Shown piece by piece: positions 32,666-36,548 of a stretch of 64,000 nucleotides of DNA. Source of the stretch: Planctomycetota bacterium (GTDB taxonomy: Bacteria > Planctomycetota > Planctomycetia > Planctomycetales > Planctomycetaceae); NCBI GenBank assembly GCA_003388505.1, contig QQVO01000069.1, positions 62,001 to 126,000 of the forward strand, written 5' to 3'. The notes beneath the pieces are model-generated. The model was not told the origin of the DNA. It was given only the letters and a program-made list of their open reading frames with translations, and did no database searches. The translations under genes and the position numbers were made by a program. Each line of letters starts with the position of its first letter. Position 1 is the first letter of the stretch.

Positions 32666-33634
32666 ATGTCTGTTTATTTTGACAAATCTCGCCGCGCGCG
32701 GCGCGGATTCACGCTGATTGAGTTGCTGGTGGTGATCGCGATCATCGCCATTCTGATCGCCCTGTTGCTGCCCGCTGTTCAGCAGGCGCGAGAGGCGGCA
32801 CGCCGCACCCAGTGCAAAAATCATCTCAAACAGATCGGCCTGGCACTCCACAACTACCATGATGCGCATCTTGTCTTTCCACCCGGCTACGTCGCGGGCA
32901 ACGTGACAGCCGCCGATCCCGCGTCCGCCGAAGATGGCAGCGGTTTCGCCTGGGGGACAATGATCCTGCCGATGATGGATCAGGCGTCGCTCTACAACCA
33001 ACTGAATCTTGACCTCGACTCGCGCGATCCGGCCAACCTGGTCGCCGGCCGAACCTACCTGCCCACGTTTCGCTGTCCTTCGGATAACGCCAACAACACG
33101 TTCATCGTCACCGACGGCACGAACAACTACGAGCTGGCGACAGCCAATTACGTGGGCATGTACGGCTACGGCAGCGTGACGATGGCGCCGGGGAACCCCG
33201 ACCCGGCCGGTGTTCTGTACCGCAACAGCAGTGTGCGGATCGGCGACATCACGGACGGGACGACGGCCACGATTCTCGTCGCAGAGCGGGCGCACGTGCA
33301 TGACTTCATTCCGGGGGCGGCTGACGTGCAGGCGAACTCGACCTGGTATGCGGCCGTTCCCGGCGTGTTTCGTCCCGCCGGCATGGGAACGATGCCCGAC
33401 GAGGCGCCCGCGTCGCTCGTGCTGGGGCATGTCGGCCAGATGATGGGCGCCATGACGATGCATCACCCCCCCAATACGACCCATCACATTGTCAACTTCT
33501 CGAGTCGCCACGAAGGCGGGGCGCATATCCTGCTGGCGGACGGATCGGTGCACTTCATCAGCGAGAACATCAACTACAATACGTTTCGCTGGCTCGGACA
33601 GCGATCTGACGGCGAGGTGATCGGCGAATTCTGA
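32666..33634 (+). CDS. DUF1559-type protein with prepilin-like N-terminus
   Basis: A 322-aa protein. RRGFTLIELLVVIAIIAILIALLLPAVQQAREAARRTQC is the canonical pilin-like N-terminus of the family, and NHLKQIGLALHNYHDAHLVFPPGY is also typical. The C-terminus has GGAHILLADGSVHFISENIN. ATG 32666 has GAGGGG 8 bases upstream. A terminator follows at 33695. Likely exported and cleaved by a prepilin peptidase, by family analogy; role unknown. Confidence 0.95.
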   Translation: MSVYFDKSRRARRGFTLIELLVVIAIIAILIALLLPAVQQAREAARRTQCKNHLKQIGLALHNYHDAHLVFPPGYVAGNVTAADPASAEDGSGFAWGTMILPMMDQASLYNQLNLDLDSRDPANLVAGRTYLPTFRCPSDNANNTFIVTDGTNNYELATANYVGMYGYGSVTMAPGNPDPAGVLYRNSSVRIGDITDGTTATILVAERAHVHDFIPGAADVQANSTWYAAVPGVFRPAGMGTMPDEAPASLVLGHVGQMMGAMTMHHPPNTTHHIVNFSSRHEGGAHILLADGSVHFISENINYNTFRWLGQRSDGEVIGEF

Positions 33635-33694
33635 GACGACACCTCCGTTCAGCGCTGTCCGCGTACGACCGGACGGCAACCTGGAGCCACGACC

Positions 33695-33735
33695 CGCAGC
33701 AGCGGTTTGACCGAAGGGGGCCGCTGCTGCGTTTT
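33695..33735 (+). terminator. Rho-independent terminator
   Basis: Perfect 11-bp stem CGCAGCAGCGG (33695-33705) with CCGCTGCTGCG (33721-33731), 15-base loop, then TTTT. It ends the 32666-33634 transcript. Confidence 0.85.
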
Positions 33736-33796
33736 CTGTGCTTCTCACGTAACGTGCGGGATCTTGTTGTCATGCGCACGATCGTGCGCTTGCTCG

Positions 33797-33872
33797 TAGC
33801 ACACGCTGCCAGCGTGTGCCAGCCGCTCTTGCGATCGGCGTAACGCACGCAAGGCTGCGTGCGTTACGTGAT
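33797..33872. repeat. Two tandem palindromes (REP-like)
   Basis: GCACACGCTGCCAGCGTGTGC and, ~20 bases later, TAACGCACGCAAGGCTGCGTGCG followed by TTACG form two near-perfect hairpins without T-runs. They sit between two DUF1559 genes and have the look of small dispersed intergenic palindromes. Confidence 0.7.
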
Positions 33873-33950
33873 TGTGTTGCGCCAACATCTCGGGACACTC
33901 CGTCGTAGATCAGATGTCCGTCCGTACGTTCCTCTCTTCATGCCGTGGCA

Positions 33951-34856
33951 ATGACACGCACGCCTGCACGTCGAGACAGCGGTTTTACGCTTCTGGAAGT
34001 CGTCCTCGTTCTGGCGCTGATTCTCGTCGCGCTCGCTTTGCTGCTGCCCGCACTGGGCGACGCCCGGCTGGCGGCCCGTCGCACGCAGTGTATGAACAAC
34101 GCCCGGCAGATCGGGCTGGCGATGCAGAACTACCATGACGTCTACCGGCTGTTTCCGCCCGGCTATGTCGCCAGAGACGTCGCTCCCTCAGATCCGGCCG
34201 AAAAGGAACGCGGACCGGGCTATGCCTGGGCCGCGATGCTGCTGCCCTACATCGACCAGGCGGCTCTCGCGGGAACGATCGATTTCTCCGCCGATCCAAT
34301 CAGCAACGCCGCGGCGCCTGCGATTGCCACTTACCGCTGCGCCAGCGACCCGGATCCGATGATGAGCTACGTCGGCTGCGCGGGACTTGGCAGCCTGACG
34401 GAATCCCCCGGCGCCCCGTCCGGCCCCGGGATCTTCTACCGGAACAGTTTCACCAGTGTGTTCGACGTCACGGACGGAACGACTCACACGATTCTGATCG
34501 GGGAGCGGGCGCAAACCCATGATTTCGTACCCGGCGAACTCCCGGTCCCTGCCGGGGCGGTCTGGCTGGCCGCGACTCCGGGAGAGTTGCGCCCTGCGGG
34601 CGTCGAGCAGCCGTTTCTGGAAAGCTCCGCGTCGCTCGTGCTGGGCAACGTCGGCCAGGACGAGCCGTTCTCGGTCAGCGCCGCACACTGCCGCACGAAT
34701 CACGTCGCCTCGTTTTCGAGTTCGCATCCCGGCGGCGCGGTGTTCGTGATGGCCGATTCGTCGACGCACTTTCTGAGCGACGACATCGACGTTGACCTGT
34801 ATCGGCAACTGGGACAACGCAGCGACGGCATGCAGGCGGATGTTCCGGACTGGTAG
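33951..34856 (+). CDS. DUF1559-type protein with prepilin-like N-terminus
   Basis: A 301-aa paralogue of the preceding DUF1559 protein: DSGFTLLEVVLVLALILVALALLLPALGDARLAARRTQC, then NNARQIGLAMQNYHDVYRLFPPGYVARDV, and GGAVFVMADSSTHFLSDDID near the end. Shared blocks with 32666-33634 suggest tandem duplication. The start ATG 33951 or GTG 33945 cannot be separated; no ribosome site is evident. It converges with the dioxygenase gene; a C-G-rich inverted repeat at about 34873-34910 may act as bidirectional terminator. Confidence 0.9.
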   Translation: MTRTPARRDSGFTLLEVVLVLALILVALALLLPALGDARLAARRTQCMNNARQIGLAMQNYHDVYRLFPPGYVARDVAPSDPAEKERGPGYAWAAMLLPYIDQAALAGTIDFSADPISNAAAPAIATYRCASDPDPMMSYVGCAGLGSLTESPGAPSGPGIFYRNSFTSVFDVTDGTTHTILIGERAQTHDFVPGELPVPAGAVWLAATPGELRPAGVEQPFLESSASLVLGNVGQDEPFSVSAAHCRTNHVASFSSSHPGGAVFVMADSSTHFLSDDIDVDLYRQLGQRSDGMQADVPDW

Positions 34857-35978: not shown

Positions 35979-36548
35979 ATGGCCTACGTCCGCACTGTCG
36001 CTCCGGAAGAGTCGACCGGCCTGTTGAAGAGACTCTATGACGCCGCGATTCGCCGGGCCGGGCGGGTGTGGAACGTGGTGCGGCTGATGAGCATCAACCC
36101 GGAGGCGCTCAAGGGATCAATCGATTTCTATCGGGTGCTGATGTACGGCGACTCCCCGCTCAGCCGCGCACAACGCGAGATGATCGCCGTTGTCGTCTCC
36201 CGGGCGAATTCCTGCCATTACTGAACGCATTCGCATGCCTACGACCTCCGTGCTGAGGTCGCTGACGAGGCTCTGGTCAACGCCGTCGCCGACGACTACC
36301 GCCGGGCGCCGCTGGACCAGGCAACCCGCGCGCTGCTCGACGCCTGCGTGAAACTCACGCTCACACCGGCGCAGATGACCGCAAGCGACGTCGATGCGCT
36401 CCGCGCCCAGGGCTTCGACGACCGCGCAATCCACGATGCGTTTCAGATCGCCGGATACTTCAACTACATCAACCGCCTCTGCGACGGCCTCGGCGTTGAT
36501 CTTGAAGAGTTCATGCCGCCGAAAGGGACGGCGTTGGAATCGGCATGA
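35979..36548 (+). CDS. AhpD/CMD-like peroxidase-related protein, probable selenoprotein (in-frame TGA)
   Basis: Read through the TGA at 36222-36224, one 189-aa protein results. SRAQREMIAVVVSRANSCHY-(TGA)-THSHAYDLRAE matches the peroxidase-related carboxymuconolactone-decarboxylase group, where this site is a C-x-x-C followed by His; the TGA stands at the second Cys (residue 82, after C79-H80-Y81). The C-terminal half (LTPAQMTASDVDALRAQGFDDRAIHDAFQIAGYFNYINRL) is the conserved family end and stays in frame. A hairpin, CGACCTC (36242-36248) with GAGGTCG (36255-36261) around loop CGTGCT, is a plausible bacterial SECIS. Alternatives: nonsense mutation or sequencing error. The ATG has no strong ribosome site. 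Confidence 0.8.
36242..36261 (+). promoter_or_regulatory. Candidate bacterial SECIS hairpin
   Basis: A 7-bp perfect stem with a 6-base loop that has G at its second position (36250) followed by T. The loop lies about 25 bases after the TGA, inside the usual range for SelB-dependent recoding. It is embedded in codons for D-L-R-A-E-V. Confidence 0.65.

Follow-up and report, generated by a model that had tools for sequence, protein, structure and literature searches.

A putative AhpD-like (TIGR01926) selenoprotein gene with an in-frame TGA at its redox motif in a planctomycete-like genome

Known AhpD-like selenoproteins and the gene under study

AhpD-like selenoproteins of the COG2128/TIGR01926 type, which carry a CxxU motif, have been described previously (PMC1088965, PMC2398784, PMC13188914). 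The GOS study counted 299 'AhpD-like 1' (COG2128, CxxU) genes (PMC2398784), and a 2006 survey reported AhpD-like (COG2128) selenoproteins in bacteria. The 2026 prokaryotic selenoprotein catalogue has an entry 'AhpD-like protein, TIGR01926, CxxU', for which it gives reference 59 (PMC13188914). This is probably the 2005 Sargasso Sea survey, judging by the match between the families listed with that reference and those of the survey. Selenoproteins of Planctomycetes have also been described, and AhpD is not mentioned in the main text of that paper (PMC4807772). Among Cys-type proteins, the closest are 6K40 (Deinococcus radiodurans), 2PFX, 2OYO, 3C1L, and 2PRR. They share the fold (TM about 0.85–0.9) and the C-x-x-C position with the protein studied here, but have Cys where it would have Sec, at 26–35% identity in fold alignments.

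The window is a 64,000-nucleotide stretch of a contig from a planctomycete-like genome. Our analysis located the following features in it:

35979..36548, + strand: putative TIGR01926 selenoprotein gene, 189 aa including U82, with ATG at 35979 and a TGA stop at 36546–36548
36177..36179, + strand: codon of Glu67, predicted proton-relay glutamate, invariant in 19/19 aligned homologues and at the AhpD spacing
36213..36224, + strand: redox motif C79-H-Y-U82, whose TGA codon (36222–36224) is predicted to be read as Sec
36234..36236, + strand: codon of His86 (U82 + 4), predicted proton-relay histidine, invariant in 19/19 and at the AhpD spacing
36242..36261, + strand: putative bacterial SECIS hairpin, 7-bp stem and 6-nt loop, about −11.3 to −11.6 kcal/mol

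The gene agrees with the published CxxU family in NCBIfam subfamily, motif, replaced Cys position, and a SECIS element just after the UGA; it differs in coming from a planctomycete-like genome. Its likeness to published members (e.g. MCB9421940.1) is one of subfamily and motif, not of sequence alignment. The initial annotation had stated that Sec forms of AhpD-like proteins are known in other bacteria, which is correct, and the very subgroup (TIGR01926/COG2128, CxxU) is already published. Since this family is catalogued, the gene is a well-supported addition to a known kind of selenoprotein. Only the planctomycete-like instance, the SECIS map, and a broad clade that is apparently all Sec are new here, and it is the breadth of the Cys-free clade and the SECIS covariation that go somewhat beyond the studies cited here.

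Translation of the window showed only one in-frame TGA in the gene, at 36222–36224, after which the same phase continues up to the stop. Open reading frame lists break the gene into an 81-aa frame and a 66-aa remnant started by GTG. That these two short frames are one gene, as had been suggested from the letters alone, is borne out by the single frame and by a profile match that spans the TGA: the protein scored 148.6 bits against TIGR01926 (peroxid_rel; cut-off, 81.8) over residues 3–173, and 19/19 aligned homologues matched the same model at E ≤ 0.001. The joined 189-residue protein was also matched by Pfam CMD. U82 lies at the second Cys position of the AhpD C-x-x-C motif (SCHY-U-THSH), and in the sequence search the TGA codon paired with the second Cys of both 2PFX and 6K40, so the proposed replacement of that Cys holds.

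Two other NCBI models were considered. NF041238 (AhpD_rel_CFYUT, alkylhydroperoxidase-related (seleno)protein) describes a related CxxU domain, to which the protein gave 69.5 bits against a cut-off of 175, over about half of the 357-position model, and it is not a member. NF053654, labelled by NCBI as GroundWater_YciW, YciW-related (seleno)protein, is a distant relative (20 bits; cut-off, 310) and was likewise rejected.

The flanking genes encode a PhyH-like dioxygenase, a 348-aa protein, and mraZ. The gene neighbourhood comparison found no conserved neighbour genes outside close relatives. Upstream of the gene, the window contains two consecutive pseudopilin-like DUF1559-type genes (32666–34856; Pfam was run on the second). 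The presence of a DUF1559 protein, together with the identity of the nearest relatives, makes a planctomycete the likely host.

Conservation of the TGA codon and the Sec machinery

Relatives were collected by scanning one genome per species with patterns derived from the window protein, and the best 80 of 95 were kept. The codon at U82 was TGA in 80/80 of these best 80 of 95, at roughly 42–63% identity, and the codon at C79 was TGY in all of them. Their source MAGs carry the labels Planctomycetota, Chloroflexota, Gemmatimonadota, Acidobacteriota, Calditrichota, Gammaproteobacteria, and others, though such labels may be wrong. A TGA shared by all of the best 80 of 95 is beyond chance.

These results bear on whether the gene is an ordinary Cys gene carrying a nonsense mutation or a sequencing error. 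A TGA is one base away from TGC or TGT, and some relatives, L109, L110, and L112 among them, do have Cys forms. But the TGA is shared across several phyla by the relatives above, by which this explanation is already refuted. The gene is also conserved to the same degree on either side of residue 82: the 50 best homologues average 54% identity upstream of the TGA and 53% downstream, and this speaks against a pseudogene. Third-position GC is 0.81 and 0.79, respectively. The equal identity and the high GC on either side mean that there is no drift, as the initial annotation had held for the downstream part. With the full Sec machinery in the genome as well, we regard the chance of a pseudogene as negligible.

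Among remoter relatives from the same family and class as the window, TGA was found in L105–L108, L111, L113, L114, L116–L119, and L121, while the remaining ones have TGC or TGT at the U82 codon. Comparison of homologues at this position, as had been advised, thus gave TGA throughout the best 80 of 95 and Cys forms in other relatives. On a tree of 111 sequences, four U/C changes were needed at this residue. Of the Cys forms, L109, L110, and L112 were placed within or beside Sec clades of the same subfamily, and the genomes of L110 and L112 (G025 and G003) contained no SelA above the cut-off. This suggests that Sec may have been exchanged for Cys in lineages that lack Sec decoding. In L110, an ACG (Thr) codon is aligned with the first Cys of the CxxC motif, and a TGC adjoins it.

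A search for the Sec genes elsewhere in the genome, which is 98.8% complete, had also been proposed, and all four were detected. tRNA-Sec was found on contig 22 at 27134 (66.5 bits; ARAGORN anticodon TCA). Contig 33 contains SelB (313 bits, or 340 including the C-terminal part), SelA (528 bits), and SelD (285 bits), in the order selB, selA, and an 836-aa frame (L135:6340–8850) whose C-terminal end is SelD. The N-terminal part of this frame is NADH-dehydrogenase-like as assigned by eye, and the whole is apparently an Ndh-SelD fusion; such fusions have been described in GOS data (PMC2398784). The genome therefore possesses selA, selB, selC, and selD, the set taken as the criterion for bacterial selenoproteins. 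It probably also holds at least two further selenoprotein genes with a TGA. One is a SelW-like gene with the TGA in a CxxU motif, MQIRITYCKEUNYRPQ (contig 16, L139:1450–1750). The other is a peroxiredoxin-like (AhpC-TSA) gene in which an in-frame TGA occupies the redox position, GDTUPVC (contig 1, L144:1399–1899, minus strand).

Co-occurrence with SelA was analysed in 59 related genomes, 13 with the TGA form and 46 others. SelA was present in 13/13 of the former versus 17/46 of the latter (Fisher p = 3e-5), where 12 of the 13 matches exceed the model cut-off and the other, in G037, consists of two partial matches (halves) on two contigs. When G037 is counted as lacking SelA, the figure is 12/13 and p = 4e-4. 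An apparent TGA match in G018, a genome with no SelA, was rejected, because this gene is of the Cys type and has a Cys codon at the active site.

The UGA might instead be read as Cys or Trp, through a reassigned code or generic readthrough. The codon stands at a redox Cys position, so readthrough that inserts Cys would yield a working enzyme. Against this, TGA also serves as the normal stop of this very gene, tRNA-Sec, SelA, SelB, and SelD are all present, the TGA form tracks SelA, and the hairpin described below covaries. We give such a reading only a very slight chance. The in-frame TGA almost certainly encodes Sec at the active site of a small enzyme of antioxidant type, as judged from these sequence comparisons.

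The putative SECIS hairpin

The hairpin consists of the arms 36242–36248 (CGACCTC) and 36255–36261 (GAGGTCG) and the loop 36249–36254 (CGTGCT), which has G at position 2 followed by U (CGU start). It begins 17 nt downstream of the UGA. A perfect 7-bp hairpin with this G, about 25 bases after the TGA, had been noted before, and our analysis confirmed it with the loop 24 nt after. According to Fig. 2 of the catalogue (PMC13188914), a SECIS element has a loop of 3–9 nt, a stem of 4–16 bp, G within the first two loop positions, a spacing of 16–37 nt, and an energy of ≤ −7.5 kcal/mol. The hairpin falls within all of these limits, which answers the suggestion that a SECIS prediction be run on this region. 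Such loose rules were passed by 87/93 Sec loci but also by 10/18 Cys loci, and the hairpin alone is for this reason weak evidence. Folding of the single sequence was unremarkable (z −1.3 for 60 nt), the codon-shuffle test on the window hairpin alone was not significant (13/100), and codon-shuffle and dinucleotide-shuffle tests were weak for single sequences generally.

The strong part of the hairpin evidence is its conserved place and its covariation. A stem occurs at the same position in 53 homologues, with 6 of the 7 pairs formed in 51 to 53 of the 53 and the outermost pair in 47/53. In these homologues the Asp codon GAC goes with partner codons that begin with G (37/38), and GAT goes with ATC (14/15). 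In the two exceptions the partner codon is CTC, and that one pair is lost. The Asp codon and its partner each changed three times on the tree. Depending on how much support is demanded, the covarying changes occupy between one and three independent branches, and just one contrast is carried by starred branches. With so few branches a sign test is without power, and the covariation is supportive rather than a formal test. The Leu codon of the stem is CTC in 53/53 homologues, versus 35% CTC among Leu codons of the same genes.

Other Sec clades have different hairpins near the same place, e.g. ACGGAG-CGGGT-CTCCGT in L070 and its kin. Within the class of the window, a further, separate Sec clade (L111, L114, L116–L119, and L121) has the palindromic hairpin TTCCTGCAGTTGCAGGA, which encodes F-L-Q-L-Q after the UGA. 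Such differences would be expected if each coding context shapes its SECIS element anew.

Active site, predicted chemistry and the Sec clade

Residues E67, C79, Y81, U82, and H86 are invariant across the 19 aligned homologues. They reproduce the AhpD relay Glu-(11)-Cys-x-Tyr/His-Cys-(3)-His, with Sec in place of the second Cys. The spacing is that of PA0269 (Glu36, Cys48, Tyr50, Cys51, His55) and of M. tuberculosis AhpD (Glu118, Cys130, His132, Cys133, His137) (PMC3141380). An AlphaFold2 model, computed with U as C, had a pLDDT of 93.6. Its best PDB matches were the five Cys-type structures named above, all AhpD-like or peroxidase-related, in agreement with the sequence search. Weaker matches to the Bmp8 debrominase (6OHI/6OHJ, 17% identity) and to sestrins indicate that this fold has further functions as well.

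Our preferred explanation, which we hold with great confidence, is that the gene encodes a TIGR01926 selenoprotein whose UGA at 36222 is decoded as Sec under the direction of the hairpin, and that U82 would carry out relay-type redox chemistry. The reading frame, the machinery, the conserved TGA, the RNA-level covariation, the relay residues, and the fold all support it. The initial annotation's call of a probable AhpD/CMD-like selenoprotein is upheld by the machinery, the conserved TGA, and the SECIS covariation. Under this explanation, SelB and Sec-tRNA would decode the UGA in the cell, guided by the hairpin 17 nt downstream, and U82 would stand in for the second Cys of the C-x-x-C pair. The Glu67/Tyr81/His86 proton relay would activate U82, whose selenolate would react with a hydroperoxide (or a disulfide). 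C79 would then resolve it as a selenenylsulfide, and a dithiol donor would reduce the latter. From the relay residues and the fold, we infer reduction of hydroperoxide or disulfide by the selenolate at residue 82, with C79 resolving; the peroxidase-type activity, the substrate, and the electron donor are predictions from sequence and model.

The protein may be a selenoprotein that is not a peroxidase, with CxxU serving either to reduce disulfides, as an adaptor of AhpC, or for reductive dehalogenation, as in Bmp8. The Bmp8 fold match fits the latter, while M. tuberculosis AhpD is itself an adaptor for AhpC, and the measured peroxidase activity of the AhpD-like PA0269 is weak (PMC3141380). However, the complete AhpD relay is conserved, the closest structures are AhpD-like or peroxidase-related, and no neighbour gene indicates another pathway. 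We consider a non-peroxidase role unlikely, though with an appreciable share of the probability.

The clade to which the selenoprotein gene belongs comprises more than 50 sequences, all Sec, from Planctomycetota, Chloroflexota, Gemmatimonadota, and MAGs labelled Gammaproteobacteria. No Cys form of this clade was found among the best 80 of 95 relatives retrieved with patterns from the window protein, whereas other AhpD-like branches do include Cys members. That the clade is an obligately Sec-dependent branch, with a chemistry impossible for Cys, appears improbable to us. The SECIS element may also constrain the protein of this clade, because the hairpin encodes residues 89–94 (D-L-R-x-E-V/I).

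Standard annotation truncates genes of this type at their TGA; the two short frames here are an example. A correct call adds an antioxidant-type selenoprotein to the genome and shows that this genome decodes Sec. The homologue set allows a covariation study of a SECIS element in a coding region, and the Sec-only clade, if it holds, would provide a test of what Sec does beyond Cys in AhpD-type chemistry.
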